Source of the DNA: Cymodocea nodosa
Taxonomy: Eukaryota > Streptophyta > Magnoliopsida > Alismatales > Cymodoceaceae
Length of the DNA stretch: 64,000 bases
Direction: 5' to 3'
NCBI GenBank assembly: GCA_036874045.1
Contig: JAZBRI010000011.1
Coordinates: forward strand, 1,922,001-1,986,000
Below the pieces are notes generated by a model. That model saw nothing but the letters and a program-made list of their open reading frames with translations. It was not told where the DNA came from and did not search any database. Positions 211 to 52,984 of the stretch are shown here, piece by piece. Both the position numbers and the translations under genes were made by a program. Each line of letters starts with the position of its first letter. Position 1 is the stretch's first letter.

Positions 211-1347
211 TTAAGAACATGATTGAAAAGTAGAAACAAATGGAATAAACGTGTTAGTCCAAACAAACTTTTTAGGCATAATTCTTCTTGCTATTAATTC
301 TGTTTTAATGTAGTTCTTGTTTCTTCTTAATTTGTAAACGTGTAATATATTATAAATTCCAAATACAAGTGTATTACCATTAATGATATGAAATGCAGAA
401 AGGGATCCTTTTCGGTTCCAAGGTAATGTAGCAGTTTCTATTTGTACATCTATTTCAATATATTCCTCTTCCCACTTCCATTCATTTATGTCTTTCATAG
501 TCTATATTTGAAATTTCATCAATTCATCCCACCATCTTATCAGACATAAAGTAGGATCATCATATTCATTATACCACATCCCTATTTGAATTTTATCAAA
601 TTCTGCAGATGGTGGTTTAGCTATTTCTCTTAATATAGGTAAAATTTCTATATATTCATCATAACTGTTTATGCTTACTATGTATAACTCAGATCCAAAT
701 GCTATTGATATATCTGTGACTAGATATACATATCCATCAAGTATAACATGCATGCTATTAATTAATGATTTCTATCCTAGATATATCATAATATTTTCAG
801 TCCAAGATCTATTTAGAAAATTATACACACTTAAGCGTAAATCTTCATCCCAATTTCCTATAGGTCTCTAATAATATAATTTTTCAAGAATGGTAGAATT
901 TTTATCAGAAAATATTAAAGTCGACCCACAATTTACAGTTGGTACTTCATATCTATTAGGTCTTCCTATATTCCATTCTTCTCTTATTATAGAATTTCTT
1001 ATCAAAATATCAAGTAATAGACTTGCATACCTTGGTCTGGTTCTGTATATAATTAATCCTTCATCCATCCCCATAACATGATCTATTCCTTCTAATGTAT
1101 TGGGTGGAATTCCAATAGTTTCTTCCATATTCAGATATTCATGGCTAATTGAACTACGATTAAATGACCTCCATATGAATCCATCTCTCATCTTAGTCAT
1201 TTTTGCAGCTTGTAGTCCTTGAAAATATTTTTCTTCAATATAGTCTTTAATTTCCTTTGATACACAACACAGTCTACACAAATCTTTAGTTGATAAATTA
1301 CTCAATACTTCCCTTAGTGTATCCAACGGTAATTGCATCAATTCCAT
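211..1347 (-). pseudogene. F-box protein ORF carried by element A (nonsense-mutated)
   Basis: About 378 codons starting at the ATG for MELMQLPLDTLREVL. The N-terminal ~45 residues are an F-box (LPLDxLREVLSNLS, then CRLCCVSKEIK), which in host proteins binds SKP1 of an SCF ubiquitin ligase. The rest resembles a plant F-box-associated beta-propeller: an ILIRNxI motif, DPTLCLIRWWDEL, and a Trp-rich NEWKWEEEY stretch. Three in-frame stops interrupt it; compared with copies B and C they replace TGG (YYWRP), CAG (LGQKS) and TGG (QIWIM). A longer upstream start (1425) would add 26 residues that do not belong to the F-box. It lies between gag and the 3' end of the element, the env position of other Athila elements. 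The target protein is unknown. Confidence 0.8.
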
Positions 1348-23544: not shown

Positions 23545-23557
23545 AATCTCCACCTTG
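23545..23557 (-). other. Polypurine tract of the copia element
   Basis: Minus strand AAGGTGGAGATT directly precedes the 3' LTR TGTGATG; it primes plus-strand DNA synthesis. Confidence 0.75.
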
Positions 23558-23612
23558 TCTTTCATCAATCTTCACCACGAACAGGTGATGAATCACCAAG
23601 ACCCAACTTGGG

Positions 23613-26600: not shown

Positions 26601-27548
26601 ACACACATCATCATTGGCCAAAGTCACTTGACCACCCTCCACCTGCTCGTAGGTGTCAAAATACTCCCTAGTAGGAGTCATATGATGTGAAGCTCCTAAG
26701 TCCATAATCCACTGATCATCAGAATAGGCACTGCAACAAACTGTAAGAGAAAAGTCATCACCTAACGCAGAATTGGTTTCTGCCACAACAGCCTTTCCTT
26801 TGTTCATAAGCTTAGGACAATGTGATTTCCAGTGTCCTTTCTCCTTACAGTAATGGCAAGTATCCCTAGAGTACTTGCCCTTCGACTTGCTTCTGCTTCT
26901 ATTCTTCCCTCCACCTTGTCTTCGGCTTCTTCCTCTATTCTCTTGTTGCTGAGCTGAGAGGCCAACACCACTTGCCTCGTTTCTACCATGCACCATGTGC
27001 TTGAGCTCCCTAGAATGAAGGCTAGACCTCACTTCTTCTAGTGTAATTGAATCTCTTCCAACTATACAAGACTAAACAAAGTTTTCATAACTCAATGGGA
27101 GTGAACAAAGCAAGATAAGAGCTGCATCTTCATCTTCTATGATTACTCCAATATTCTTGAGTTCCATCAGAATAGCATTTAGTTGATCTAAATGTTGCTT
27201 AAGAGGTACACCTTCTATCATCTTTAAAGAGAACAGTCTCTGCTTTAACAACAATTTGTTTGTTAAAGACTTAGTCATATACAATGACTCAAGTTTCTAC
27301 TAAAGACCTAACGAGATAGATTCATCAGCAACTTCTATTGTAACTTCATCAGACAAACACAACAAGATGGTGGAGTGAGCTTTCTCCTCCTGCAATTCAA
27401 ACTCTGGCGAATTTCTGTTCAAAGTAGTTTCCTTATTTAAAGGAGCCCAAATACCTTGTTACTTTAGAAGTGCTTTCATCTTAATTTGCCATAAGCTGAA
27501 GTTATTCTTACCATCAAACTTTTCTATCTTCAACCCCGAAGTATTCAT
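23613..27548 (-). pseudogene. pol: Copia gag-pol polyprotein (broken)
   Basis: Starts at MNTSGLKIEKFDG (27548). In order: UBN2-type Gag with LESLYMTKSL; zinc knuckle CHYCKEKGHWKSHC near 26865; protease WIMDLGASHHMTP (the usual DSGA reads DLGA); GAG-pre-integrase WHSRMGHLGQKG; integrase with TPQQNGVAKRLN; RT with QLDVKMAFLHGEL and YVNDILIA (YVDD expected, so a catalytic Asp is Asn); RNase H with YTDSDYAGNVDRRRS and CTTKAEYVA; end near 23613. Interrupted by about eight stops, for example the pair near 27297-27302 and one near 25980. Motifs such as MKDLGSVGRILGMEI suggest the Tork lineage. Confidence 0.9.
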
Positions 27549-27880
27549 GTTTTCAAAACAACAAACAACTAGCAATACACACGAGATACAATGTGATTTC
27601 AACAAACACAATTATACGGCAAGGTACACAATAGCAAGCAATATCTTAACAATAATATGCTACTAAAACTACTGATTTCAACGAAATACAATCAGCCACA
27701 AGCCAAGCACACTACTTATCACAAAACAATAGCAAATACTTGCACAAACCAAGCACAAAACCACAATCACAAAATGCCCAAAATCCGACAATCAAAGAGT
27801 CACTCGTCTAGAAAACTACTATGCCCTAGCCAGACGCCTCCTGCTGTATCTCTCTTAATACGAAACTTCTGACCACGAAA

Positions 27881-28254
27881 TTTTAAAGGAAGGAATTTCA
27901 GGAAGCTTACTACACGTCCTCAAAATTTGAGATGCAACGGAGCACGAACAAGGAAGGCGCACGACTTGGTGTCGGAGTGTGCAGACTAGCGCCAGCGATG
28001 ACGATAGTTACGGCAATGGGGGATATCCTTGCGGAAATGGCTTGAACCTTGATCAATCTCTTCAAACTTTTAAAGGAAGGAATTTCAAGAAGCTTACTAC
28101 ACGTCCTCAAAATTTGAGATGCAACGGAGCATGGACGAGGAAGGCACACAACTTGGCGTCGGAGTGTGCAGATTGGCGTCGGCAACGACGGCAGTTACAA
28201 CAATAGAGAGATCCCTTGCGGAAATGGCTTGACCCTTGATCAATCTCTTCGAAA
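27881..28254. repeat. Tandem duplication (2 x 187 bp) in the copia leader
   Basis: TTTTAAAGGAAGGAATTTCA begins both units, at 27881 and 28068, and 'cttgatcaatctcttc' closes both. It lies between the primer site and the gag ATG. The copies differ at scattered sites, so it predates the insertion's decay. Confidence 0.85.
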
Positions 28255-28286
28255 CTTCAAATGCAAACCCGGAGATATCCAACCTC

Positions 28287-28298
28287 GCTCTAATACCA
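28287..28298 (-). other. Primer binding site, tRNA-Met type (copia)
   Basis: Minus strand TGGTATTAGAGC, one base from the canonical TGGTATCAGAGC, two bases inside the 5' LTR. Confidence 0.85.
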
Positions 28299-28300
28299 GT

Positions 28301-28673
28301 TGTTGTGCAGAAAGATCAAACAAACGTGGAGCATCTAGGGGTGATGTGGAGAAGAGATTTGCGTGGAAGAGATGATTGCGAGTGGAGAATTTGAAGAACA
28401 ACAAATTTACATGGTTCCCCCACACGGGTATGTCCACAGGTGATCAATCTATCGTGATTCCTTGCTGTATGGTTGCTGGTACAAAGAAGGGGGAGAACAA
28501 AATTAAGGGATGGTTTGGCATGACATCCCTTGGACGTAGATGACCCCTTACATATATAGGGGCAACGGTTGGTGATACCTAAAAGATAAGTTTGCCCCTA
28601 TACAAATTATCAAAGAAATACAACCATATACAAAAACACATATATATACTTGATGGAAGACACACGCATCACA
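28301..28673 (-). repeat. 5' LTR of the copia element
   Basis: 373 bp, TGTTGTGCAG...GCATCACA on plus, pairing with 23174-23544. Confidence 0.95.
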
Positions 28674-33478: not shown

Positions 33479-34616
33479 TTAAGAACATGATTGAAAAGTA
33501 GGAACAAATGGAATAAATGTATCAATCCAAGCAAACTTTTTAGGCATAGTTCTTCTTGCTATTAGTTCTATTTTAATGCAGTTCTTGTCCCTTGTTAATT
33601 TGTAAACATATAATATATTATAAATTCCAAATACAAGTGTATTACCATTAATGATATGAAATGCAGAAAGGGATCCTTTTTGGTTCCAAGGTAATGTAGC
33701 ATTTTCTATTTCTACATCTATTTCAATATACTCCTCTTCCCACTTCCATTCATTTATGTCTTCCATAATCCATATTTGAAATTTCATCAGTTCATCCCAA
33801 CATCTTATCAGACATAAAGTAGGATCATCTTCTTCATTATACCACATTCCTATTTGAATTTTATTAAATTCTGTAGATGGTGGTTTAGCTATATCACTCG
33901 GTATAGGTAAAATTTCTATATATTCATCATAACTGTCTATGCTCACTATGTATAAATCAGATCCAAATGCTATTGATATATCTGTAACAAGATATATATA
34001 TCCATCTAGTATGACGTGTTTGGTTAGTTATTGATTTCTGTCCTAGATATATTATGATATTTTCATTCCAAGATCTATTCAGAAAATTATACACACTTAA
34101 GCGTAAATGTTCACCCCAATTTCCTGTAGGTCTCCAATAATATAATTTTTCAGAAATTGCAGAATTTTTATCAGAAAATATTAAAGCCGATCCACAATTT
34201 ACAGTTGTTACTTCAAATCTATTAGGTCTTCCTATATTCCATTCTTCTCCTGTTATAGGATTTCTTATCAAAATATCAGGTAATAATAAACTTGCATACC
34301 TTGGTCTCGTCTTGTATATGATTAATCCTTCATCTATTCCCATAATATGATTTATTCCTTCTAATGCATTGGGTGGAATTCCAATAGTTTCTTCCATAGC
34401 CAGATATTCATGGTTAATTGAACTACGATTAAATGACCTCCATATGAATCTATCTCTAATATTAGTTATTTTTGCAGCTTGTAATCCCTGAAAATATTTT
34501 TCTTCAATACAGTCTTTAATTTCCTTTGATACACAATACAGCCTACATAGATCTTTAACTGATAAGTTACTCAGTACTTCCCTTAGTGCATCCAACGGTA
34601 ATTGCATCAATTCCAT
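33479..34616 (-). pseudogene. F-box protein ORF of element C (one frameshift)
   Basis: Best preserved of the three. Start MELMQLPLDALREVLS (34616), F-box with CRLYCVSKEIKDCIEE, then IRNPITGEEWNIGRP, and after a small indel near 34010 the frame resumes with GSDLYIVSIDSYDEY, DPTLCLIRCWDEL, IWIMEDINEWKWEEEY and ends FVPTFQSCS. No in-frame stop apart from the frame break, so only one lesion separates it from an open 378-codon ORF. Same place as in A and B, between gag and the internal polypurine tract. Function as an SCF adaptor is inferred from the fold; substrate unknown. Confidence 0.8.
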
Positions 34617-34800: not shown

Positions 34801-34894
34801 TCATTCAGCTATCCTCCTAGAAGAGGTATCAATTTCATTAACCATTCTATTGACAGGATTAGGTATAGCTTGTATTGGTAATCCTCTAGTAGGT
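34801..34894 (-). pseudogene. gag: gag of element C, 3' end (severed by insertion B)
   Basis: Encodes the last ~30 codons of gag, up to EIDTSSRRIAE and TGA. It ends at the target duplication TAGGT (34890-34894); the rest of gag resumes at 51730. The upstream GLPIQ codons of gag show the undisturbed site in A and B. Confidence 0.85.
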
Positions 34895-36747
34895 TGTTCG
34901 TGTTTTCCCAGCACTACACTAGAAAAACTTGGATTTGTTACTTCTATTTTTACTTAGTTAATTTATCTTTATGCCTATTCTTTCTTTTAGAAGTAAACAA
35001 ACAACCTTTAATACAATTTAGATATTAATTCCAATTTGTACTTTAACTGCAAGTGCACAGTGTCTATTGTATCAGTGTGCAAGTACAGGTCGATCCCACA
35101 GGGAATTGCTGACGAATTTAAGAAATGTTTGATTGTGAACAATTCAAATTTATATTCAATAAGCACTCCGTTGAGTTACAGTTAACTCAACGGACTAAGT
35201 TCGTTGAGTTATGAATAACTCAACAGACTATCCTCGTAGACTTAAGTTAATTCCACGAGCCTGTCTCTTCTTTATAATACTGCTAATTATAAAGGAATTC
35301 GACCAACCATTGGGCGATTCCACAGATTGTAAATAACATCAATTAAGCTTTTTTTAATGCTAGTTAACATTGGATTTATCATTATGTAATACTAACATTC
35401 AGATGATTCAAACAGTAACCATTAAAATCTTTAAGTTGTTTTGTACGAACCAATTTCAGTAAACTGTAAAATTAAAACTAACATAAAACAATCATAAAAT
35501 TGATACAGATAACATTAATCACGATACAACACCAACAATACAACACTCAAATACAACATACAAACAAAGATAAATTGGTTTTGGTATTTTTGTTTTGATG
35601 TGATGGGCGAAAGGCGAAATGTAAATTAATTTCACTTGACAGTAAATACTTCCGACACTACTTGCAATGCGATTACACCATTGAAAATTGAACCACTTAC
35701 AATTCTGTCTCCTCTCCCTATAGAATCGCGAGTCCAGAATTGCAAGATGATCTCTTCAACATACAGGCATCAACCCGAAGCCAAGGCTAAAAGCTTTACG
35801 ATATCCTAAAATATAAGTCAGCGCTTGGTGAAAATATCTTCCCTTCCCGCGACATGATCACTCCTCACAGTGGTTATCAAGCACTGTATTTGCCTCGGAA
35901 TCGACCTGACATCAGGCAAGTATCCTCACAGACCTCCAATGATTGGTGATTATGATGGTGATACGATGGTTGGTGTGATACTTCGGAGAATCATCGATAC
36001 TATCTGCAGAAAGCTCGGTGCTCGTCCTCTGTATACATTGGCCATCCATCGATCACACTCTTTCTTTTTTTTCTTCTTTTCTTTTATATTTCTTCAATGG
36101 TAACTGCTTCTACTTGAATGGTCGGTTGGATTTCCTTCCTTCAGATCAACGGCGATGATTTCTTTCTCCCTACGCGATTGAATTCCTGCGTGATACGTGC
36201 AAACGTGGTTTTTCCTTCCAACTGTCTGTTCCTGCAACTGCTACAGTGGCATATTAGAAAATATATAGTCCGTGGAGTTACAGATAACTCAACGAACTTC
36301 CTTCGTTGATTTAACTATAAAATACGTGCAAAAATAACAACTTAAGTTTATAACGCTAACCTAACGCGTTGCCTTAGTGTATTTTCATGTAACTCAACGC
36401 GTGCAGTTATATTAACTTAACAAGTTATAACGTAAGTAAATTTACCAGCTCTCAACACGTGTCAGCAGTAGTTTAAACATAAAATAACATTCCAAAGAGT
36501 TACAGGTATAACTATCTGATGCTTAGATACATTTTCGAATACTTAAGAATTTCACAGCCTGCAATTTACCGACAGTTCATAAATGTACTAAATTAACATT
36601 AATTCTCCAAAATTAAGCAGATTCTTCAATTAAAGCATATAACAATGCAATTATAACATAATGGCTTAATTCTCATATGATAAGCTAAATATTATGCAAT
36701 TAACCATCATTTAACTGTTAATAATATGCACTTTTTCATTCTAAACA
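34895..36747 (-). repeat. 3' LTR of element B (1853 bp)
   Basis: TGTTCGTG...CTAAACA on plus. Hairpin cluster at 35165-35262, TATA box 36082-36088, U3 shortened to one partial palindromic unit near 36480-36550. Confidence 0.95.
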
Positions 36748-36760
36748 CTTTCCCCATACC
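36748..36760 (-). other. Terminal polypurine tract of element B
   Basis: Minus strand GGTATGGGGAAAG directly before TGTTTAG. Confidence 0.85.
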
Positions 36761-38085
36761 TAAATTTTGCTAGTCCCTTAGCAAACTAAGATCTAATTAA
36801 TTGGTCTTTCAAAAAGTGCTAGAATTAATTCTTCCCCTTTGGTTTTTTTTCTTCTGTTTAGCATAAACATATATTCTATATGTTTCAGTAATCAACCTGC
36901 AAAGATATTTAGAATATATGTAAATTACATACAAAGTATATCATCTTCATATAGGTGTTAATTATATTATCGTCTGTTCTTCTTTTCATCATCTGTAATC
37001 CTGAATTTTCCAATAAGTTTTTCTAGAAGAAATTTCAACAACATACAAATTAAAGTACAATCCAATTCAATCTGATTAAGACAAGTAGAATAAAGAATTG
37101 TATTTCCATTAAACAACTTCAAAAGTCAATTCCAGATTCATATTTCAGCAATTCTAGATAACAGAAAATATACTCGATTCATAAGATATCTGTATTTCAC
37201 AAAACACTTGTATCTTTTAAGAATAGTATATGTTTTTCTTTTTTTTCTTTTTTTCTTTTTTTCTTTTTTTGTGTACTTTGAAAGTTAATTTGACAAGCTT
37301 GAATCATGCAAGAGCTTTCTAATGTACCCATGTAACGAGCTTTCAATCAACAATCCCAGATCTAACAAGATCTTAGGTTGCCAGATTTTCAGAGTCCTTT
37401 TTCAGGTCAACAATCCTTACATACCTATCTGCTCAAGTACAAAAGGCTCGTGATCAAACAAGTCAATAAACTCTCAATATATATATATTTTTTTTCTTTT
37501 TCTTTTTTTTTTCTAAAAATAAATGCACACACAAAACAAAGCATTAATCACATACTGTATATGCATGTATTTCATTAATACAGATGTAGTAAAACACCAA
37601 TCTCATATAATCCTGCTTCTATCATTTACTAAAGATATGAATCCATAACTACATCAAATATTATCTGTAGTTTAATAAGATCTACACAAAAATTATTCTA
37701 CAAGTTCAATCAGTCAAAGTAAATGTATCTTTCATCATATGTGTTTCATTTAATCTAGAATTCACATCTCAGCTCCTTCAGGACTTCAGATAATTTTCTG
37801 ATTAAGCATTAAATATTCTGATTTCATTTTAAAATCTTGAAACTGTTAAACTCATGAAATTCAGAAAAATCATAAGATACTATATCTAGATTTACATAAA
37901 TAATAAATTCTATAGCATCTTCTATAGCCTTCTAAATATAACATTCAAGCAGTTTATAAAAATTTTACAATCTCAATTATCGGATAGTTACAGCAAGTTC
38001 ATAAAAATTTTCAATTTCCTCAAAACTTTGCAGTACCATTTTAATTCCTTTAATTAACAAACTTGCATGGCTGTTACTTTAATTA
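36761..38085. other. Non-coding stretch between polypurine tracts (B)
   Basis: No gene. T/C microsatellite (TTTTTTC units) at 37230-37270 and AT run at 37477-37515. Collinear with 31758-33040. Confidence 0.7.
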
Positions 38086-38123
38086 CCTCCCCCCCATACC
38101 TACATTTTGCATTGTCCTCAATG
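38086..38123 (-). other. Internal polypurine tract and stem-loop (B)
   Basis: Minus strand CATTGAGGACAATG stem then a G7-containing tract (GGTATGGGGGGGAGG). Same as 33041-33078. Confidence 0.7.
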
Positions 38124-38534
38124 TAAAAGATTTGACAATAAGTACAGTAATTGTAGCAGGCATGAATAAAGTTTTGTTTGATTTAAAATTCAGGATAAGT
38201 AATTGGTTACATACCTTGTTCCATTTGTATATCTTTCTGCATATTCTGATTTTTGATTCTGAAAAACTTTTCATTCCCAGATAAACATAGAATATAAAAC
38301 AAAATAACATTTAACAAGTATTAATAAATTAGTGTCTTGTGTGGAACCCAGGCTTCTATGCCTTTGGTGGCTCACAAGCAAGTCAGTTGGTTTCCCAGAA
38401 TAGATACCAACAAACTAGATTGATATTTTGTTTTGTTTGTTTTTTTTTTTATTAAATGAACATGAAAAACTTCAAAATTCTTTTTTTTTTTTTTTTTAAA
38501 TAAATGTAGAATACACAACATTAAACACACAAAA

Positions 38535-39683
38535 TCACAGCTTAAGAACATGATTGAAAAGTAGAAACAAATGGAATAAATATGTATCAATCCAAGCAAA
38601 CTTTTTAGGCATAGTTCTTCTTGCTATTAATTCTGTTTTAATGCAGTTCTTGGTCCTTTTTAATTTGTAAACATGTAATATATTATAAATTCCAAATATG
38701 AGTGTATTACCATTAATGATATGTAATGCAGAAAGGGATCCTTTTTGGTTCCAAGGTAATGTAGCAGTTTCTATTTCTACATCTATTTCAATATATTCCT
38801 CTTCCCACTTCCATTCATTCATGTCTTCCATAATCCATATTTGAAATTCCATCAGTTCATCCCACTATCTTATCAGACATAAAGTAGGATCATCTTCTTC
38901 ATTATACCACATTCCTATTTGAATTTTATTAAATTTTTCAGATGGTGGTTTAGCTATTTCACTCGGTACAGGTAAAATTTCTATATAATCATCATAACTG
39001 TCTATGCTCACTATGTATAAATCAGATCTATATGCTATTGATATCTCCGTGACTAAATAAATATAACCATCAAGTATGACATGTGTTTGGTTAATTAATG
39101 ATTTCTGTCCTAGATATATTATAATGTTTTCATTCCAAGATATGTTCAGAAAATTATACACACTTAAGCGTAAATCTTCACCCCAATTTCCTGTAGGTCT
39201 CCAATAATATAATTTTTCAGGAATTGCAGAATTTTTATCAGAAAATATTAAAGCTGACCCACAATTTTCAGTTGGTGCTTCAAATATATTAGGTCTTCCT
39301 ATATTACATTCTTCTCTTGTTATAGGATTTCTTATCAAAATCTCAGGTAATGATAAACTTGCATACCTTGGTCTCGTCTTGTATATGATTAATCCTTCAT
39401 CTATCCCCATAATATGACTCATTCCTTCTAATGCATTAGTTGGAATTCCAATAGTTTCTTCCATAGCTAGATATTCATGGGTATTTGAACTACGATTAAA
39501 TGACCTTCATATGAATCCATCTCTAATCTTAGTCATTTTTGTAGCTTGTAGTCTCTGAAAATATTCTTCTTCAATACAGTCTTTAATTTCCTTTGATACA
39601 CAACACATCCTGCACAGATCTTTAGCTGACAAGTTACTTATTATTTCCCTTTGTGCATCCAACGGTAATTGCATTAATTCCAT
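38535..39683 (-). pseudogene. F-box protein ORF of element B (nonsense-mutated)
   Basis: Starts MELMQLPLDAQREII (39683) with an F-box (CRMCCVSKEIKDCIEE), then IRNPITREECNIGRP, the propeller-like region and WIMEDMNEWKWEEEY. Two in-frame stops replace TGG codons of the sister copies (TGA in FIWRSF near 39510; TAG in LIRWWDE near 38863). A frame shift near 38575 changes the last ~15 residues. Length and position match the ORFs in A and C. Divergence from A and C is spread over the whole length, as expected for a component inherited with the element. Confidence 0.8.
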
Positions 39684-39878
39684 TTGTCGATTCTGTAAAA
39701 TAAAAATAAAAATTTAGCAGAGACAAAAATTAACATAACTACTGCACACCCTCGTGGAGTCAAGGCATAACTCAACGGACTAAGTTCGTTGAGTTAAAAA
39801 TTAACTCTATGATACTATTAACTTAAAATAAAAATAAAAACATATATACATATAGATAGTTGCTTCAGATATGCTGCT

Positions 39879-41222
39879 TCATTCAGCTACCCTCCCAGAA
39901 GAGGTATCAATTTCATTAACCATTCCATTGACAGGATTAGGTATAGCTTGTATTGGCAATCCTCCAGTAGGTCTAACTTCCATTGGTTCCTTCTATCTAA
40001 GTGGTATATTTCTATTCTGATTTTGATTTACAGCATTTCCAAATATAAATTCTAGACGATTGTTTACTTGTTGGATTATCTATTCTAATTTCTCTATTCT
40101 AGCTCCTTGTTCAATTAATACTTCATAACTTATGTTCTTCTCATTTATATTTTCTCCTCCCTGGAAATTGTTGTTTCTCCAAGATAAATTCAGGTGATTT
40201 CTCCAATTAGGATTATAATAATTTCCCAAGTTATCTCTCTAGTTTCTAGCATAAATAATATCTAAGTCATTTATGTTTGTATTCTTTTCTGCTAGCTTTT
40301 GATTTAATGATAACTCTTCTATTTTCTTTGTTAATTCATTTAATTTCACCTCAAGCATAGTATTGGAATCTATTTCATGCATTCCTCTTGGCAATAATCT
40401 TTTATCTGCAATAGCTTCAACTGAATTTTCCCACTCTGTAGTTCTTTTTGCAAAATTTTCTAAATATGCCCATACTTCTTCATTACATAATTTTAAAAAT
40501 CCATTTTGACAAGTAGATTCTAATAAAGATTTCAATGAAACATCTATGCCTTCATAAATTATTTCTATTAATTGTGCTTTACTCATTGCATGATGTGGAC
40601 ATTGAGTCAGTAAATCTTTAAATCTTTCAAAATATTTCTAGAATGATTCACCCTATTTTTGGCTACACATTAATATTTCTTTCTTCTTTTTAATAGTTTG
40701 ATGTGTTGGATAGTATTTTTCTAGAAAAACAGAGCAAAATTCAGTCCATGTAGAAATTGAATCAGGCGATAGAGTATATAACCATCTCTTAGTTGTATCT
40801 TTTAAAGCAAAAGGGATATATCTAAGTTTAATAGCATCTATACTCATGTTCGACATTCTCATCATTTGACAAACTTCGTTAAATTCTCTAAGGAAATAAT
40901 AGGCATCCTCTCTTTCTAATCCATGAAAATGTGGCAATTGACTAATATAATTAGATTTCAGTTCAAACCTATCTCCCTAAAAGTTTGGCAATTGAATACA
41001 TGAAGGTTCATCAATTAATTCAAGATACAGAATCTCTCCTAATGGTTTTTCTACTGGAGTAGCCATCTCTACGTTCTCTTTTAAAGAAAGGTTAGCTACA
41101 CCCCAAAGAATTTCGTTAAAGTTCAGTTTAGAAAATTTTTCAGTACCCCTCTGCAATGAAAATTCCTAGATAGGTGTTCTTACTAATCGTTTAGTACTTA
41201 GAGAACGAGTCTATGTGCTCAT
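39879..41222 (-). pseudogene. gag: gag (capsid) ORF of element B, downstream of pol
   Basis: Start at ATG 41222, stop TGA after EIDTSSGRVAE. Contains ELKSNYISQLPHFHGLEREDA, the capsid core KLRYIPFALKDTTKRWLYTL and FLEKYYPTHQT, QCPHHAMSKAQL, the helix ELTKKIEELSLNQ and NPNWRNHLNLSWRNNNFQGG. No zinc knuckle. About eight stops, including TAG for TGG in ESFWKYF and TAG for Gln. The usual Athila order (gag before protease) is reversed: it lies about 3.9 kb downstream of the integrase end. Confidence 0.85.
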
Positions 41223-41265
41223 AAATAAATAACAAAAGATTAATTACATACCAGTCTGAAGCTTT

Positions 41266-41451
41266 CTATTCTATAAAAATTTGTTGTCGGATGAAGGTTG
41301 AATCAGCTGCTTCTCCTTCCAGTTCCTCCAACACTTTCTCCTTTCTCTTAAAAGTGCTGGTAACTTGTAAATAATATTCTATTTCATATATATACTGCGC
41401 ATCCATAAAGTGAATAAATCTCGTTGCAAGAACGTGTCTTGCAACGTGCAT
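41266..41451 (-). CDS. Small conserved ORF upstream of gag (element B)
   Basis: 61 codons from MHVARHVLATRFIHFMDAQY to RQQIFIE, 44 nt upstream of the gag ATG. Same frame as 2935-3084 and 53006-53212; the sister copy in C runs further, to LNGKLQTGM. No domain recognised. The CGTTGCAAG/CTTGCAACG inverted repeat (41422-41446) spans its first codons. Confidence 0.4.
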   Translation of the reverse strand: MHVARHVLATRFIHFMDAQYIYEIEYYLQVTSTFKRKEKVLEELEGEAADSTFIRQQIFIE

Positions 41452-42178
41452 CGTGGTTCCTGTTTTAATCGGTACGTGTACCACTACTAATTTCAAATTT
41501 TGGTAACCGCTAAACTGACAAAGTTTTGTTTGTGGTTAAAAGAATAACCGTTCTGCTTAATCCACGAACTAACCTCGTTGAGTTACAGATTACTCAACAG
41601 AACACAGTCGGCTACTGTTGTTAACTCCACGGACTAACTTCGTTGAGTTATAAATAACTCAACAGAGTGACCTTATATTATATTACTGACCTCGTGGAGT
41701 TACGGTTAACTCAACGGACTAAGTTCGTTGAGTTAACACTTGGCAACTTCTAAGTTTCACTCTCGTAAGTTTTCTATTCTGTTTTTTTTTTTTTTTTTCT
41801 TTGTCATTCTGCTAACTGTAGTAAAGTTAAATCTATGTCATTAATTCCTCATTTTGATTAAAATACATTTAAATCTGAACATTATATAAAGATTTAAATT
41901 GCAGGTCATTTTATGTTATGCAAAATTTACATTTTACCTTATAACATGCAGAAATTTTTAAGCAGTTATCCTGTCATTCAGCAAATTGTAAATCTGTTAC
42001 ATATTCATTCATAAAGTTTCACAATAACATAATATTCAATAATTTCCATTCATTTCACATTCAAAACATGTATGAAAATTGCATCTGAAAAATTTACATT
42101 CATTAATATGAATCAATTACAATACAAGTACATCATACAATTTCATACAATTTTACACAAGTAGACGAATAATACAAT
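41452..42178. repeat. ORFX-gag spacer with GAGTTA palindromes (B)
   Basis: 41570-41740 has at least four interrupted palindromes (CGTTGAGTTA...TAACTCAACA and CGTGGAGTTA...TAACTCAACGG). A T-run lies at 41783-41800. No gene. Confidence 0.7.
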
Positions 42179-44401
42179 TTAATCTCTATGCCTAAGTTCA
42201 TCTACTTCCTTCTGGAGTTTTTCTAATTGAAGTTCTAATTGGTTAATACTCTCTATAGCTCTTGTAATTCCTTCAAAAGGTACTGCTAGTTCTGCAGCTA
42301 CAAAATTTCTGTATTCTTTCACTGAAATGGTTCTAGATCTTATCCTTTTTGATGTCCATTTAGTGAAATCAATACTATCCACCATCAGTAGTGGAATCAA
42401 ATCTCCATAAAATAATTTCTTCTTTACTGTTTTCAGCTTGGAGATAAAAATTGCAGACCAATTTATTTGGATCTTATTTACAACTGCATACGTGGCCCAT
42501 TTGACAAATTGACTTAATTCTATGTCATGGCCCTGTCATTGATAGACATTCTTAATCAGAATGTTAGCTACCATGTGTGCTTTACCATTTAAATGCTTCA
42601 ATCTGTTTAATAATGGCACACCAGGATTGATAGCTAAATAATCTTTAATTTGCTGCTCAGTCCATTCAACTGCAGTTGTATCCTCCAAAATTTTTGTTCC
42701 TTCATTCTTTAAACCAAATATGTTGTGGAGAAGCTCTGGTGTTATCTGTACATCAGCTTCCTCCACGTTTGAAATTAATTCTCCTTCTCCTTCTCTTAAA
42801 TTTGCATAGAAACAGGGCACTAAATTTTCATATATTGTATGCCCTCTATCTTGAGATATAAATTGCAGTAGACCTTGGAATTCAAATAGATCTTTGATTT
42901 CTTGCATTCCATCCCAATTTACTAGTCTACTGTAAATAATATCGTAACCCCTTATTTCTTGGTATTTGATATAAGCTTCCTGACTACAAAAATGTACTTC
43001 ATTCAAAATTGTTGTTTCAATCGGGTCAGGAAGGTGACTTTGTTGCTCTAGAGGGGTTTGCTCTTGCTCTTCCTCCAGCATAGGCTGCATTTGGACATTC
43101 TCTTTAGATTTTTGAATTTTTGCTTTTGCTTCTATCTATGGTGGTGAGTCGGCAGAACTCTCCACTCTGTCTTGAATTCTTTCCATAATTTGCTGAAGAG
43201 TTTCTTGCTCTTCAATGGAATCTATGAAATTATTTTTGTCCAAATGGCTTTTTTCAGCCTCTTCATTTTCTACTCTTTCTTCTTCCTCCTAACTACCAAT
43301 CTGTTCTGTTACTGTTCTTTCTGATTTTGTAACAGATTGGGATGGAGTCACGGGCAATTCAATTTCTGCCCTAATTTCTGTTTCTTCTTGTATAGGCTGC
43401 AAACTAATTTTAGCCTGATTTTTTTCTTTTCTTTGCTCCTCCTACTCCTCCTTAGATTCGGATAGCAGGTTGATAAAAATTTGCTCCACAGGCCCTGTAA
43501 AAATTAGTACTTCAGATTTAATTTCCTCATATTTAGGCACTTTTTCTTTTCTTTTCTTTTTTCTGATTAGTTGTGCCTGTTCTTCCTCTTCATCTTCTGA
43601 AATTAAATCTATAAAAATAGGCTCTGCTGGCCTTCAAGCCACAGGTACTGGCTCTTCCTATTTAACTTTAATTGCTGGTCTTGAAGGACCAGCTTCATCT
43701 CCTTTTGCAGTAGGTTTGGCAACAGTTCTGGCAGTAGCTGCGTGATGCTGTTCCACTTTGATTTTATATTGGGCTTTCAACTTTTCTACAGCCCTCTTTT
43801 TGTACAATGCATCAAACACCAGGTGTGCTTTAGCAACTACCAAGTCTTCTGATTCTCCTTGATTTTTTCCAACTTGAATCAGTTTTGCAAATTCTCTTAT
43901 TTCTTCTTCAATCGAAGGCCCCATTATTTCTGCTCGTGCCAATGGCTTAAATGGTGGAACTGAAGGTCCAGACTGCTGCTCCTCAGGAACAGGTCTTTCA
44001 GTAGTTGGTTCCTCCCGTTCTTCAGTTGCCTCTTCATTTGCTTTCCTTTCTTGCTCCCAGATCACCCGTTTAGCTTGTCTACAGATTCATCTTTTGAACC
44101 AGAGTTGGGACTTACGCTGGATTAATTCTAGGGCAACTTTGTTACTTGGCCTTATTTGTCTTTCTTTACTTACTGCAATTTCAGTTGCCACTCTGATTCG
44201 TGTTTCCATCATTTAAGGTATTCGTATATCCATATCTATTAAATCTCTTCGCAACTTGAAAAGTTTTGATTCTACCTTCTGTAGCTCTTTCTCTCTTGTC
44301 GTATTTCTGATCTTCTACCGTGTGTGCCACTCTTCTGATTCCTTCAGAAATTCTGATGTATCAACAACATCTTCCCAGAATTCAGGCGTCATCTTCATCA
44401 T
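42179..44401 (-). pseudogene. ORFX of element B: PF20167-like transposon-associated protein
   Basis: Starts MMKMTPEFWEDVVD (44401) and ends EVDELRHRD. Regions: charged coiled-coil-prone N-terminus (KELQKVESKLFKLRRDL), Glu/Pro-rich middle (EERE-EPTTERPVPEEQQ), acidic patch EDEEEE, then KDLFEFQGLLQFISQDRGH, NLVPCFYANLREGEG and ITPELLHNIFGLKNEG, the PF20167-like core, and a C-terminal coiled coil (LELQLEKLQKEVDEL). About nine stops, many TAG where A keeps CAG (for example KQEEPVP). Role in the element is unknown; it is not an env, having no membrane segment. Confidence 0.65.
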
Positions 44402-45114
44402 CGTGGAGTTACACAACAGCACGTAATCGCTTTGATTTCTACTGTTCTAGATTCTAAATGATTTGTTGGATAATGCCCCTAAAACCCTAGGTTTTAGTTT
44501 AAATAAGCACTAAGTTTAGGCAGGTAATCAGGTCATTTCCCGAACCAACTATCACTATTTTATCCACGGTCTTAGCTACAGTACTTCGTTGTGTTACAGG
44601 TAACTCAACGGAATAAGCTCGTTGACTAACTCAAGACTCAACGGAATAAGCTCGTTGAGTTAAGCGTAACTCAACGGATTCCCCGTATAAGCAAATATAA
44701 TAATAAAAATATTACAGAGAATAGTTTTTCTATTTTTTTTTTTTTTTTTTACAGGTTTAACCGATACTATGCTTCGGTCAGACCTAAAATTTTATATATA
44801 TATATATTTTTTATCTTTCTTTCGATTGAACCGATACTATGTTTCGGTAAACAAAATTTTTTTTGAAAATTAATATACAATTTTCTTTCCGGTTTAACCG
44901 ATACTCTGCTTCGGTAAAACCAATATTTTTTTTTTATGTTTCGGTCATACCGATGCTACGCTTCGGTCAGACCTAAATATTTTTTAATTTTTCGGCCATA
45001 CCGATGGATTCAGTCGGTTGAACTGCAACTATTTTTATGTTTTATATATATTTTTAATGTTTTTTTTTTTTTTTTTTTCACTATATATATATAAACATAA
45101 AAACTGATTTCTCA
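44402..45114. repeat. pol-ORFX spacer with expanded CGGTTTAACCG repeats (B)
   Basis: 44580-44680 holds GAGTTA/TAACTC palindromes. 44750-45030 holds about five units of the pattern CGGTTTAACCGATACTATG then YTTCGGTCAGACC, spaced by T-rich runs. Poly-T at 44727-44750 and 45060-45078. No gene. Confidence 0.75.
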
Positions 45115-48100
45115 CTAAGTAAAACTTGAGTAGTCCTCTACTCTAATTTCTTCTATAATTCCAAAGGAGCTTTTTGGTGTTTTCAGAATAGGTTTAAGTC
45201 TTTGTCCATTTACTTTAAATATATTCTGATTTTTAGGATTTTCAATTTCAATAGCTCCATAAGGATAAACATTTCGAACTATGTAAGGTCCTGCCCATCT
45301 AGATCTTAATTTTCTTGGATGGTTATGGAGTCTAGCCATATAAAGATATACTTCTTGTCCTATTTCAAAGTTTTTAGGAATAATTTTTCTATCATGCTAG
45401 AATTTAATTTTCTCTTTTTCTCTTACAGTCTTTGAATAAGCTTCATTTCTAAATTCTTCTAATTCAATTAGTTGCATTTTCCTATTTTCAGCAGCTTGAT
45501 TTAAATTAGTGTTCAGAGTTTTTAATGCCCAATAAGCTTTATGTTCTATTTCAGCAGGTAAATGACAACTTTTTCCATATACTAGCCTAAAAGGTGACAT
45601 ACCTAAGCTCGTTTTATAAGCAGTTCTATAAGCCCAAAGTGCATCAATCAATCTATTAGCCCAATCTGTTCTAGTAGGATTTACTAATTTTTCCAAGATT
45701 AATTTAATTTGTTTGTTTGCACTTTCTACTTGTCCACTTGTTTGCGGATGATATGATGTTGCAATTTTGTGGTTTACTCCATATTTCTTCATTAAGGCTT
45801 CAAAACTTCTATTACAGAAATGAACTCCTCTATCACTGATAATAGCTTTAGGTATTCCAAATCTGGCAAATATATTTGTTCTTATAAATTGTATTACCAC
45901 TTTGTTATCGTTAGTTTTTGTAGGAATAACTTCTATCCATTTAGATACATAATCCACTCCCAACAATATGTAATTAAATTAATTAGATATAGGAAATGGA
46001 CCCATAAAATCTATTCCCCACACATCAAAGATTTCAACCTCAACAATAGGATTAAGAGGCATCATATTCCTCTTTGATATTCTTCCTATTTGTTGACATC
46101 TTAAACAACTTAAGCAATCTTTATGAGCATCTTTGAATAGTGTTGGCCAATAAAACCCACATTGTAGAATTTTTGCAGTAGTTTTCCCTGAACCAAAATG
46201 TCCTCCACAAACTTGGTCATGACAGAAAGACAATATGCTTGAATATTCAGTTTCTGGAACACACCTCCTTAAAACCAGATCAGGACATTTCTTAAATAAG
46301 TAAGGGTCTTCCCAATAGTAATATTTTACTCTTGAGAAAAACAATTTCTTTTCTTGTCTATTCCAATCCTTAGGTGTTAAACCAGTAACTAAGTAATTAA
46401 CTATGTCTGCATACCAAGACATTGTGTTGATGGTCATTAATTGTTCATCAGGAAAATTATCTTTAATTTCAATATTTGATTTTTCTATTTATAATCTTGA
46501 TAAATGATCTGCTACTACATTCTCACAACCTTTTTTATCTTTAATTTCTAGATCGAATTCTTGCAATAATAATATCCATCGGATCAATCTAGGTTTAGTT
46601 TCTTTTTTCTTTATTAGATGTTTTAGAGCTGAATGATCTGTGTATACTATTACTTTAGCTCCAATCAAATATGATCTAAACTTTTCTAAAGCAAACACAA
46701 CAGCTAATAATTCTTTTTCAGTAGTTGTGTAATTAACTTAAGCATCATTTAAGGTTTTGCTTGCATAATGAATCACTCTAGGAGATTTTTCTATTTTCTG
46801 TCCTAACACTGCTCCTACAGCAAAATCAGAAGCATTGCACATTAATTCAAATGGATGGTTCCAATTAGGTGCTTGAATTATAGGAGTTGAAATAAAGCTA
46901 GTCTTAAGTCTAAAAAATGCTTCCTTGCAATTTTTATCAAAGTTAAATGGAACATCTTTTAATAGATTAGTTAAAGGTCTAGCTATCTTGCTAAAGTCTT
47001 TAATAAATCTTCTATAAAACCAGCATGTCCTAGAAATGATCTAATATCTTTTACTGATTTAGGTTCTGTTAGATTAGAAATTACTTCTATTTTAGCTTTA
47101 TCTACTTCCAACCCTTTTTTAGAAACAACATGTCCTAAGACTATTCCTTGTTTAACCATGAAGTGACATTTTTCCCAATTTAAAACCAGATTTTTTTCCA
47201 CACGGCGTTTTAATATTTGGTCTAAATTGCTTAAACACACTTCATATGAGTTGCCATATACAGTAAAATCATCCATAAATATTTCTAAAAATTCATTAGT
47301 TATTCCAGTAAATATGCCCTGCACACACCTTTGAAAGGTAGCTGGTGCATTGCATAATCCGAATGGCATTCTTTTAAAAGCATAAGTTCCATTAGGACAG
47401 GTGAAAGTTGTTTTCTCTTTATCCTCTAATGCTCTGGAATTTGATTATACCCTGAATACCCGTCTAGGAAACAAAACTATTCTTGCCCTACTAATCTTTC
47501 CAGCATTTGATCTATAAAAGGTAAGGGAAAATGATTTTTCCTAGTCACAGCATTTAGCTTTCTATAGTTTATACATACTCTCCAGCCTGATTGAATTCTA
47601 GTAGGTATCAAGTCTTGACTTTCATTCCTAATAACTGTTAATCCTGATTTCTTGGGAACTACATGGATTGGACTAACCCACGAGCTATCAGAAATCGGAT
47701 ATATTATATCATTATCTAACCATTTAACTATTTTCTTCCTGACTACTTCCTTAAGGTTTAGATTTAATCTCCTCTCAGGAATTCTAACAGGTTTAGCATT
47801 CTCTTCTAAATATATGTGGTGACAGCATAAAGTTGAACTTAACCATTTTATATCAGTCATAGTCCATCCTATTGCTTCTTTATAACTTTTTATTACCTCT
47901 TTTAATTTAGCTATTTGATCCTCTTTCAAATCTGAAGCAATAATGATTGGACAGGTCCGTTTATCTTCCAGAAATATATAGGTTAATTTAGGAGGTAAAG
48001 GTTTTAATTCTAAATGCTGCCCATCAGAAGCTAGAGCTCCTAATTGAACATCATCATTTTTTAAATTAATTTCGTCCTGATCTCCTATATTTATGCTTTC

Positions 48101-49755
48101 ACTTTCTTCTAAAGTTTCAGAATTGATTTGCCTATTTAATTCTTCTTGAATCACATCATCTAACATATCTCCTTCATCCTCTAAAAAGTCTATGGTATGT
48201 AAGGACATTTCTAACTCCTCAAACCTTTCTAGTTTGAAAATATTTAATTGAGTATCCTCATTACCATATGCTAATTTCATTACTCCAGTTTTACAATTTA
48301 TAACAGCCCTTGATGTTGCTAAAAATGGCATTCCCAAAATTAAAGATGTATCACTATTTTTATGCTTAATTTGTTGGGAATCCAAAATTACAATATCAAT
48401 AGGATATATAAAATTCTTGATTTTAATTAAGACATCCTCTATTTTTCCTCTAGGGTATCTTATACTTCTATCAGCCAATTGAATAACCGTACTAGTAGGA
48501 GTTAAGCCTTCTAATCCTAAGGATGCAAATATATCACTTGGCATAACATTTATACCTGCACCTAAGTCTATTAAGGTTCTTTTTAGAATGGTATTTCCTA
48601 TGGTGCATGATATAACAGAGATTCCAGGATTAGATAACTTTTTAGGAATTTGTGGCAGAAATAGGTAACTACTTTGCTCAACTAAAAAGACCTTTCTAAG
48701 AACTTTTCGCTCTCTTTTCTTAGTACACCAATCCTTCAGAAATTTAGCACAATGTGGCATATTCTGTAATAGATCTATCAAAGGAATGTTAACTTGTACT
48801 TTTTCAAAAATTTCTCTTATTTTTTCTTATTTTTTAGGAATTGTTTGTTGTAATCTTTCAGATAGGGTGCTAAAGATTTTGATTTCAAAGACTCTTTTTC
48901 TTTCAGTTGATTTGTTTGATTATTTTTAGCTTCAATTGCAGATTCAGATTGTTCTTCAGTGATTTCTAGATTTTCAGCTATTACATTTTCATTATCATTT
49001 TGATTTTTACTCTTGTCCACCTTCATATCATTTTCATTTTGAGTTCTTGGTGGTATATCAGTTCTAGATCTTAATGTTACACATACATCTTCCAGATTTT
49101 CGTTACTTTCATGATGTTTTTGTATATCATTTTCGTGATTATGATCTTCAATTGTTTTTAGTTTTAAAGTGCATTCTTTAAATTCTCTTACATTTGTGTT
49201 TTCTGTTTGTTGTATATTTTGCAAGTTGTGTAGGTTTATAACATTATAATTTTCATTGTCCTGTTGCAAAACTTGTATTTTCATTGCATTCTTGTCTAAT
49301 GCTTTTAATTTTGTTTCCAGATCATCTAATTTCATTGCATTCAATTGTTGATCAATTTTCTTTATGGCTTTTTCAGTTTCGTAAATTATATCCTGTTTAG
49401 GTTCTGAATATGCCTCCTTATAGTTTAATTGGTTGACTTCTTGTTGTTGACACACAAAGTATTCTAGTTTGTCCAGATTTTGCTCTATACTATGCTCCAG
49501 TCTATCATAGCTATCCCAAACTTCAGTGTCTCTCATCATATTACACATTCTATACTGACCATCAGTTGGGTAAACTATAGGATTCTCATACTCGGCTCTA
49601 TTATATTAAGGATAATTCATTTGTTGTACATGGGATCTATCAATCTGTAAATGTCTCAATTTCAAACAATCAGAAAGGTCGTGTCTTTCAGAATTGCAGA
49701 ATTCACATATGCTAATTAAAGGTTTCAGAAATCTTTGAGCATAAGCATATGCCAT
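45115..49755 (-). pseudogene. pol: pol ORF of element B: zinc knuckle-protease-RT-RNase H-integrase
   Basis: Starts MAYAYAQRF 95 nt from the primer site. A complete CX2CX4HX4C knuckle (CEFCNSERHDLSDC) lies near 49670-49715. Then a linker rich in Asn/Glu, protease LIDLGAGINVMP (Asp at 48566-48568), RT with FMDD at 47268-47279, RNase [14 protein letters not shown], integrase zinc region CGGHFGSGKT...CLSCLRC and DDE core ([25 protein letters not shown]), and a C-terminal module ending VEDYSSFT. Frameshifts near 48830, 47435 and 47020 and several TAG stops kill it. Catalytic residues are otherwise intact. Confidence 0.9.
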
Positions 49756-49849
49756 ATTCTCAATTACAGAAGAAAACACATAACTCTGACTATTAAAATG
49801 AAACAGCTCTAACAGTTACTTATATCTATTCAATTCAATTCAATTCAAT

Positions 49850-49867
49850 TCCCCGGCAACGGCGCCA
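49850..49867 (-). other. Primer binding site, tRNA-Asp type (element B)
   Basis: Minus strand TGGCGCCGTTGCCGGGGA, a full 18-nt match to my recollection of the plant tRNA-Asp 3' end. 7 bp (AGTTTTA) separate it from the LTR. An ATTCA microsatellite (49827-49850) follows it inside the leader. Confidence 0.9.
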
Positions 49868-49874
49868 TAAAACT

Positions 49875-51729
49875 TGTTCATGTTTTCCCAGCACTACACT
49901 AGAAAAACTTGGACTTGTTACTTCTATTTTTACTTAGTTAATTTATCTTTATGCCTATTCTTTCTTTTAGAAGTAAACAAACAACCTTTAATACAATTTA
50001 GATATTAATTCCAATTTGTACTTTAACTACAAGTGCACAGTGTCTATTGTATCAGTGTACAAGTATAGGTCTATCCCACAGGGAATTGTTGACGAATTTA
50101 AGAAATGTTTGATTGTGAACAATTCAAATTTATATTCAATAAGCACTCCGTTGAGTTATAGTTAACTCAATGGACTAAGTTCGTTGAGTTATCCATAACT
50201 CAACGAACTATCCTCGTGGACTTAAGTTAACTCCACGAGCCTGTCTCTTCTTTATAATACTACTAATTACAAAGGAATTCGGCCAACCATTGGGCGATTC
50301 CACAGATTGTAAATAACATCAATTAAGCTTTTTTTAATGCTAGTTAACATTGGATTTATCATTATGCAATACTAACAGTCAGATGATTCAAACATTAACC
50401 ATTAAAATCTTTAAGTTGTTTTGTACGAACCAATTTCAGTAAACTGTAAAATTAAAACTAACATAAAACAATCATAAAATTGATACAGATAACATTAATC
50501 ACGATACAACACCAACAATACAACACTCAAATACAACATACAAACAAAGATAAATTGGTTTTGGTATTTTTGTTTTGATGTGATGGGCGAAAGGCGAAAT
50601 GTAAAGTAATTTCACTTGACAGTAAATACTTCCGACACTACTTGCAATGTGATTACACCACTGAAAATTGAACTACCTACAATTCTGTCTCCTCTCCCTA
50701 TAAAATCGCGAGTCTAGAATTGTAAGATGATCTCCTCTTCAGCATACAGGCATCAACCCGAAGCCAAGGCTAAAAGCTTTACGATCTCCTGAAATATGAG
50801 TCGGCGCTTGGTGAAAATGTCTTCCCTTCCCACGACACGATCACTCCTCACAGTGGTTGTCAAACACTGTGTTTGGCTCGGAATCGACCCGACATCAGGC
50901 AAGTATCCTCACAGACCTCCGATGATTGGTGATTATGGTGGTGATACGATGGTTGGTGTGATACTTTGGAGAATCGCCGATACTGTCTGCAAAAAGCTCG
51001 GTGCTCCTCCTCTATATACATTTGACGTCCATCGATCACACTCTTTCTTTTTTTTCTTCTTTTCTTTTATATTTCTTCAATGGTAACTGCTTCTACTTGA
51101 ATGGTCGGTTGGATTTCCTTCCTTCAGATCAATGGCAATGATTTCTTTCTCCCTGTGCGATTGAATTCCTGCGTGATACGTGCAAACGTGGTTTTTCCTT
51201 CCAACTGTCTGTTCCTGCAACCACTACAGTGACATATTAGAAAATATATAGTCCGTGGAGTTACAGATAACTCAACGGACTTCCTTCGTTGATTTAACTA
51301 TAAAACACGTGCAAAAATAACAACTTAAGTTTATAACGCTAACCTAACGCGTTGCCTTAGTGTATTTTCATGTAACTCAACACGTGCAGTTATACTAACT
51401 TAACGAGTTATAACGTAAGTAAATCTACCAGCTCTCAACACGTGTCAGCAGCAGTTTAAATATAAAATAACATTCCAGAGAGTTACAGGTATAACTATCT
51501 AATGCTCAGATGCATTTTCGGATACTTAAGAATTTCACAGCCTGCAATTTACTAACAGTTCATAAATGTACTAAATTAACATTAATTCCCCAAAATTAAG
51601 CAGATTCTTCAATTAAAGCTTATAATAGTGCAATTATAACATAATGGCTTAATTCTCATATGATAAGCTAAATATTATGCAATTAACCATCATTTAACCA
51701 TTAATAATATGCACTTTTCATTCTAAACA
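49875..51729 (-). repeat. 5' LTR of element B (1855 bp)
   Basis: TGTTCATG...CTAAACA on plus. Hairpin cluster 50146-50242, TATA box at 51065-51071 (TATAAAA on minus), U3 with one partial unit. A plus-strand ORF at 50796-51086 is antisense to R-U5. Confidence 0.95.
51065..51071 (-). promoter_or_regulatory. Putative TATA box of the element B 5' LTR
   Basis: TATAAAA on minus in AAATATAAAAGAAAAG, conserved in all five LTRs in the window. It would start transcription about 30 bp leftward, giving a ~1.2-kb leader before pol. Confidence 0.6.
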
Positions 51730-52984
51730 TAGGTCTACCTTCCATTGGTTCCTTCTGTCTAAGTGGTATATTTCTATTCTGATTTTGAATTGCAACACTT
51801 CCAAATACAAAATCTAGATGATTGTTTAATTGTTGGATTATCTATTCTAATTTCTCTATTCTAGATCCTTGTTCCAGTAATGCTTTATAACTTATATTCT
51901 TCTCATTTATATTTTCTCCTCCCTGGAAATTGTTGTTTCTCCAAGATAAATTTGGGTGATTTCTCTAATTAGGATTATAAGAATTTCCCAAGTTATCTCT
52001 CTAGTTTCTAGCATAAATAATATCTAAATCATTTATGTTTGCATTCTTTTCTACTAGCTTTTGATTTAATGATAACTCTTCTATTTTCTTTGTTAATTCA
52101 TTTAATTTCACCTCAAGCATAGTACTTGAATCTATTTCATGCGTTCCTCTTGGCAATATTTTTTTATTTGCAATAGCTTCAGCCAAATTTTCCCACTATG
52201 TAGTTCTTTTTGCAAAGTTTTCTAAATATGCCCATGCTTCTTCACTACATAACTTTAAAAATCCATTTTGGCAAGTAGATTCTAATAAAGATTTCGTTGA
52301 AACATCTATGCCTTCATAAATTATACCTATTAATTGTGCTTTACTCATTACATGATGTGGACATTGAGCCAGTAAATCTTTAAATCTTTTAAAATATTTC
52401 CAGAATGATTCACCCAATTTTTGGCTACACAATAATATTTCTTTCTTCTTTTTAATCGTTTGATGTGTTGGATAATATTTTTCCAGAAAAACAAAGCAAA
52501 ATTCAGTCCATGTAGAAATTGAATCAGGCGACAGAGTATATAACCATCTCTTAGCTGTGTCTTTTAAAGAAAAAGGGATATATCTAAGTTTAATAACATC
52601 TATACTCATGTTCGACATTTTTATCATTTGACAAACTTCATTAAATTCTCTAAGGAAATAATAGGCATCCTCTCTTTCTAATCCATGAAAATGTGGCAAT
52701 TGACTAATATAATTAGATTTTAGTTCAAACCTATCTCCCTCAAAGGTTGGCAATCGAATACAAGAAGGTTCATCAACTAATTCAGGATACAGAATCTCTC
52801 CTAATGGTTTTTCTACTAAAGCAACCATCTCTACGTTCTCTTTTAAAGAAAGGTTAGCTACACCCCAAAGAATTTTGTTAAAGTTCAATTCAGAAAATTT
52901 TTCAATACTCCTCTACAATGAAAATTCCTAGGTAGGTGTTCTTACTAATCATTTAGTGCTTAGAGAACGAGTCCATGTGCTCAT
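51730..52984 (-). pseudogene. gag: gag of element C, 5' and central part (cut by B)
   Basis: Starts at ATG 52984. The frame is open from MNFNKILWG through LPHFHGLEREDA, the capsid core KDTAKRWLYTL, GESFWKYFKRFKDLLAQCPHH and WAYLENFAKRTT, about 230 codons, the longest open gag here. TAG then interrupts the WEN codons, and the frame continues through ELTKKIEELSLNQ until the B insertion at 51729/51730. Continues at 34894-34801. Confidence 0.85.

Follow-up and report, generated by a model that had tools for sequence, protein, structure and literature searches.

The window, a 64,000-nucleotide stretch of contig JAZBRI010000011.1 of the Cymodocea nodosa genome, contains three LTR retrotransposons of the same organization, here termed elements A, B and C. 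Element A (34895-51729, minus strand), for which two LTRs, a primer binding site, a polypurine tract and a 5-bp target duplication were found (Table 1), is nested inside element B, within the gag gene of the latter, and element C occupies the left end of the window. The order protease-reverse transcriptase (RT)-RNase H-integrase identifies element A as a member of the Ty3/gypsy group. Its primer binding site, which presumably matches a tRNA in Athila-like fashion, and protein features that we likewise take to be Athila-like, together with an env-like match below the profile cut-off, suggest that the element is probably Athila-like. The LTR pair presents a K2P distance of 0.046 over 1853 aligned sites, with transitions accounting for 70 of the 82 differences, which corresponds to an insertion age of 1.8 My or 3.3 My under assumed rates of 1.3e-8 and 7e-9 per site and year, respectively.

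Table 1. Coordinates of annotated features, in window positions and ordered along the minus strand of element A, followed by the F-box copies of elements B and C.
Feature	Coordinates	Strand	Evidence and remarks
Target-site duplication ACCTA, 5' side	51730..51734	-	Partner at 34890-34894
5' LTR, element A	49875..51729	-	TG...CA ends; 95% identity to 3' LTR (self-comparison)
Primer binding site TGGCGCCGTTGCCGGGGAA	49849..49867	-	
5' ORF, two overlapping frames	47480..49605	-	No Retrotrans_gag match; Asp_protease_2 E 2.7e-5, then RT start
Reverse transcriptase / RNase H	46531..47590	-	tblastn with element C pieces
Integrase (zinc-binding, core, C-terminal part)	45118..46488	-	Integrase_H2C2 E 4e-12, rve E 3e-12
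orfX	43580..44314	-	54-65% identity between copies; most neighbouring pieces about 80-95%
env-like ORF region (Transposase_32-like)	42182..43135	-	PF20167 E 8.6e-4, below cut-off
Intron 1	39693..41251	-	Donor CAGACTG/GTATGT, acceptor TTTACAG/AATCGACAAATG; contains all of gag
Alternative splice, intron 1 donor to acceptor TTGCAG at gag exon start	41151..41251	-	L084 only
gag exon, displaced 3' of pol	39879..41150	-	Retrotrans_gag E 4.4e-8 and 3.3e-5 in pieces
Intron 2, donor after gag stop, acceptor of intron 1	39693..39853	-	L027 only
F-box ORF, element A	38535..39683	-	TGA at codon 59 and TAG at codon 273
Polypurine tract AGGTATGGGGAAAG	36748..36761	-	Adjoins 3' LTR
3' LTR, element A	34895..36747	-	Self-comparison; ends and flanks read
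F-box ORF, element B	33479..34616	-	One frameshift; splits into 219 + 155 residues
F-box ORF, element C	211..1347	-	Three internal TAG

Pfam and tblastn searches outlined, from 5' to 3' on the minus strand, the order protease, RT/RNase H, integrase, orfX, env-like ORF, gag, F-box gene and polypurine tract. The segment running from integrase through orfX, env and gag to the F-box gene presents the same order in elements A and C and in two loci elsewhere in the genome (L031 and L032), and element B follows it down to gag, with its F-box gene lying beyond the inserted element A. In the pol region, a single piece of element C matched both RVT_1 and RT_RNaseH (E 4e-35), and the C-terminal part of the integrase was assigned by position and conservation. 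The 5' ORF is open in a single frame in element C (9003-11057) and does not significantly resemble the 3' gag, which was also matched by Retrotrans_gag in element B (52199-52912, E 6.7e-20). The gag gene lies 3' of pol in all three elements of the window and 3' of integrase in L031 and L032; at locus L063, the sequence from the LTR through pol is contiguous with element A, which has no gag in that part. The placement of gag 3' of pol hence follows from the gene order in L031 and L032, from the contiguity at L063 and from the lack of similarity between the 5' ORF and the 3' gag. The first-pass annotation had correctly located the F-box gene between gag and the polypurine tract, with no mention of the position of gag relative to pol, and had equated its place with that of the env-like ORF of Athila elements. 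The env-like ORF is instead a separate gene, located 5' of gag.

Between integrase and env, orfX has equivalents at 5198-5923 and 55105-55797, and the element C copy is 54-65% identical to four other copies; given the values of about 80-95% for most neighbouring pieces, orfX appears to be unusually fast-changing. A family of palindromic motifs (AACTCAACGA / TCGTTGAGTT and near forms) was found at 52 places in the window, compared with an average of 0.05 over 20 simple shuffles. Of these places, 23 belong to element A (from 35168 to 51269), where they concentrate in the two LTRs and ahead of orfX, gag and the F-box gene; the motif may act as a promoter element or be bound by a protein of the element. 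A TATA-like stretch (GTATATATATG, 41385-41395), some 140 bases upstream of the donor that precedes gag, marks a possible internal promoter for gag and the F-box gene.

Further insertions were detected in the same window. A separate insertion occupies 23173-28673; its terminal repeats share 93% identity, and it contains ORFs that we take to be of Ty1/copia type. A gag fragment from this family (13484-14032) lies in inverted orientation directly beside the 5' LTR of element C and suggests another nested insertion. An ORF of 350 residues (61905-62954) gave, in its first-ATG form, no Pfam match at E 1, and the env-like stretch adjoining it (61241-61591) shares 32% identity with its element A counterpart; the match to element B stops at about 61198.

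The three places at which the first-pass annotation had located the F-box gene (Table 1) are correct in their coordinates and homologous to each other. Over residues 1-200, identity between the element B copy and the other two window copies amounts to 84.5% and 83.3%, and the genome copy L018 shares 86-92% identity with all three. The ORF of some 378 residues that had been reported at each place, however, is open at none of them: the coding strand is the minus strand in the three cases, with plus-strand translations ridden with stops, and every minus-strand frame is interrupted by stop codons or a frameshift. A profile search, which the same annotation had proposed, identified the F-box domain (PF00646) at the start of the gene in two window pieces (E 1.6e-10 and 1.3e-8) and above the Pfam cut-off of 20.5 bits in all five uninterrupted genome copies scanned (28.5-40.9 bits), which are natural copies with open 379-codon frames. 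The F-box in the postulated combination of F-box and propeller-like domains is thus borne out, whereas its propeller-like part is unproven. FBA_1 matched the five open copies within residues 202-318 below its cut-off of 21.1 bits (14.1-16.5 bits, E 0.008-0.044), and AlphaFold2 models with a mean pLDDT of 34.1 and 43.5 consist of a helical F-box part and numerous strands after it, a prediction too weak for naming the fold of the C-terminal part, which extends for about 340 residues beyond the F-box. A fold search with such a weak model returned clathrin terminal domains and other large folds (query TM 0.12-0.22 in the top 50 of 773 rows) and was given no weight.

A search of the genome assembly (374.6 Mb in 28 contigs) with the F-box piece returned 5917 first-look candidates, and all 150 that were scored matched. 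The exact, unspliced sequence context of the acceptor site preceding the F-box gene occurs 747 times in the genome. At least part of gag was found directly upstream of the F-box gene in 28 of 29 loci, a set chosen by similarity to the query and excluding the window's own, and in 20 of 20 loci picked by the acceptor sequence only. The F-box gene is therefore a fixed component of a high-copy LTR retrotransposon family, in agreement with the initial proposal that it travels with the element. Neither of the observations named there as refuting it, a lack of any F-box profile match or of the F-box in other genomic copies, was made. In a search for its host origin, protein databases queried with one piece and one alignment of the F-box returned no match, and a scan of viral contigs also gave no match. 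A genome search with the F-box in which 150 of 4219 candidates were scored led, among 10 of these 150 places that were read, to nine instances of this same gene and to one locus (L085) encoding a clear other F-box protein, without useful similarity. The closest host F-box gene and its introns, which the first-pass annotation had suggested seeking, were hence not found in protein databases or among these 10 of the 150 scored genome places.

Among the 29 loci chosen by similarity, the single one without gag (L025) lacks exactly positions 41251-39693. The missing segment starts with GT and ends with AG in the sense of the element, contains all of gag and places its acceptor AG 9 nt before the F-box ATG (intron 1 in Table 1). 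The exact junction was detected 96 times in the genome, with no occurrence in a backwards control, and intron 1 is precisely absent from 20 of 20 further distinct loci; these were chosen by that junction, which is accordingly no independent evidence there, but their upstream side is contiguous with the element over at least 293 bp in every case. Two other junctions, each observed at one locus, use one of the sites of intron 1. Locus L084, obtained from a search with a made-up junction pattern allowing one mismatch, combines its donor with an acceptor at the start of the gag exon, and L027 combines its acceptor with a donor after the gag stop codon. Among 47 copies inspected for the latter donor, its position was assignable in 26; it reads GT in 17 of these and AT in nine, and element A itself has AT. 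Of 27 copies examined for the acceptor AG next to the F-box ATG, 25 retain it. L090, a member of a subfamily with 77% protein identity, is compatible with the intron 1 junction over 79 aligned upstream bases.

The relationships among these copies were analysed with a 60-row tree from whose alignment the junction was withheld. Five of the 20 gag-less and three of the 20 unspliced loci were excluded because of rearrangement or truncation, as were L027 and the window's own copy. On this tree, the distribution of the 16 gag-less rows requires nine changes of state, compared with 14.4 in shuffles. This clustering, and the amplified appearance of some clades, would be expected if all gag-less copies descended from one amplified genomic deletion without any splicing, and recombination between copies during reverse transcription could have scattered such an event. 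Nonetheless, well supported branches require at least eight changes, a single clade for the gag-less state is rejected (p-AU 4e-66, quick tree), the missing segment ends exactly on GT..AG, and the junctions of L027 and L084 fall on donor and acceptor sites sharing an acceptor or a donor with intron 1. We hence regard a single deletion as very unlikely. The simplest reading of these sequences is that gag-less copies arose by repeated reverse transcription of spliced element RNA, and template switching could have spread some of the junctions. Six of the 20 gag-less loci (L039, L040, L042, L057, L059 and L061), as well as L084, also lack orfX and env, from 44568 to about 42230. An origin of this loss by splicing was rejected, since its ends could not be placed on GT..AG. 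In the one such locus checked, pol is kept upstream (L063, upstream of L061), and the copies without orfX and env are probably a non-autonomous subfamily.

Subfamilies down to 58% identity retain the F-box reading frame. We computed dN/dS for deep pairs comprising L018 against L086, L087, L088, L091 and L092 (58-85% identical to L018) and pairs among these. In-frame values ranged from 0.39 to 0.58 in nine of the 10 pairs and reached 0.73 in the tenth, against 0.69-1.34 in frame +1 and 1.01-1.68 in frame +2, the pairs being non-independent and the off-frame values an impure neutral control. Two shallow pairs yielded 0.85 and 0.64. For 600 random pairs of the young crown, the true frame (0.48) was indistinguishable from frame +1 (0.47), with 0.64 in frame +2 and 0.53-0.71 in noncoding pseudo-frames, and crown-level dN/dS was discarded as evidence on account of the identical behaviour of frame +1. 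A comparison of dN/dS across many element copies had been proposed at the outset, and we base the case for constraint on the deep pairs.

A complementary analysis of 63 rows revealed that variants present in at least six copies are shifted towards synonymous changes with respect to singletons (77:50 versus 289:88, p 8e-4), and that a noncoding stretch stays unshifted in all three pseudo-frames (p 0.30-0.52). The direct comparison of common variants between the F-box gene and the noncoding stretch, however, gave p 0.09-0.22 per pseudo-frame, and in a smaller first set two noncoding controls were shifted too (p 0.004 and 0.027), so that this test is weak. A value of p 0.03 for the same comparison was discarded, since it added the three pseudo-frames and counted each variant three times. 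The deep pairs show in-frame constraint on the F-box gene, and selection within the young crown is not clear.

These results bear on the alternative that the gene stems from a single capture of a host F-box cDNA and is merely carried along whenever the element is copied, without serving it. F-box genes are abundant in plants, and most sampled copies are broken, with at least 370 codons open from the ATG in only two of 20 unspliced and three of 20 spliced loci. The 2-nt shift of the query copy is present in eight of 29 other loci, a set chosen by likeness to the query, implying either that copies without a whole F-box gene have spread or that the site is a slippage spot. The equal crown values of the true frame and frame +1, and common variants not significantly different from the noncoding stretch in any single pseudo-frame, also fit such a passenger. 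Against it stand the frame and its low dN/dS in nine of 10 deep pairs, the retention of the acceptor AG beside the ATG, and the agreement of the diverged copy L090 with the same junction. On balance, we consider it quite unlikely that the gene is a functionless passenger.

The data instead lead us to propose, as a reasonably likely reading, that the F-box gene has long served this Ty3/gypsy LTR retrotransposon as an accessory gene, that gag and the F-box gene at its 3' end are expressed via spliced RNA, and that the F-box protein serves as an SCF adaptor, the SCF step and its target being inferred. In this model, the acceptor preceding the F-box ATG would be joined to the donor 5' of gag, as seen in many copies, yielding an F-box RNA without gag, or to the donor just 3' of gag, as seen in one copy. 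The donor 5' of gag would also be joined to the acceptor at gag, again as seen in one copy, so that gag too would be produced from a spliced RNA. The F-box would then bind host SKP1 and the C-terminal part would select a target, with the resulting SCF ligase removing a host silencing or restriction factor or, alternatively, surplus protein of the element. The element may in this manner steer the protein-disposal machinery of its host.

A host factor appears somewhat likelier as the SCF target than an element protein. Removal of gag from the F-box mRNA means that gag and the F-box protein would be alternative products of one RNA, and this arrangement also fits a protein acting in the element's own cycle, for instance by limiting the level of Gag or integrase, rather than on the host; we regard this as fairly unlikely. 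A bolder extension of the accessory-gene model, which we put forward tentatively and regard as somewhat doubtful, is that of a virus-like rearranged lineage, with pol and the env-like gene first, gag and the F-box gene last, alternative spliced products, and an SCF ligase turned on a silencing or restriction factor. The displaced gag raises the question of how enough Gag is made from the 3' end of the element, and the natural gag-less copies constitute a record of its apparent RNA processing.

In the accessible part of their description (PMC7264820), Athila-type Ty3/gypsy elements share several features with element A. Both present the order protease-RT-RNase H-integrase and additional sense ORFs between pol and the 3' LTR, and the putative env-like ORF 3' of pol in element A, with its Transposase_32 match below the cut-off, would correspond to the env-like ORF with a weak match of this kind in Athila elements. 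Element A differs from them in having gag 3' of pol and env, and in its fixed F-box ORF. No description of an unusual gag position in LTR elements was found in the literature searched, including the available portion of PMC1142308. Splicing that sets the ratio of products in an LTR element has a parallel in the Ty1/copia element EVADE, which generates a spliced short GAG RNA (PMC8892269, in its available text). The spliced RNA of EVADE makes Gag, whereas splicing in element A, with its 3' gag, would remove gag to yield an F-box RNA.

The fixation of a domain from a cellular protein in a Gypsy lineage has likewise been described for orchid elements carrying an AlkB RNA demethylase, for which an action on host surveillance has been proposed (PMC9289625, as far as its accessible text goes). 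The orchid domain is an enzyme and that of element A an F-box. The same study screened 121 angiosperm genomes and reported 15 unusual domains, and the term F-box is absent from its main text in the form available (PMC9289625). In agreement with the initial surmise that no plant LTR element with an F-box ORF had been described, none was found in the literature by title or abstract start.

Turning a host ubiquitin ligase against host factors is known from plant RNA and ssDNA viruses and, by another route, from lentiviruses. The polerovirus P0 and nanovirus Clink proteins, according to the available parts of PMC3588083 (see also PMC6593998), are viral F-box or F-box-like proteins that engage SKP1, as proposed here for element A, and viral F-box proteins of this type act on silencing or the cell cycle (PMC3588083). 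P0 is described as lacking typical C-terminal repeats (PMC3588083), whereas the element A protein carries the long C-terminal part noted above. If the proposed role is correct, retrotransposons would carry a ubiquitin-ligase adaptor of the type known from these viruses, and whether transposable elements degrade host silencing proteins would become directly testable.
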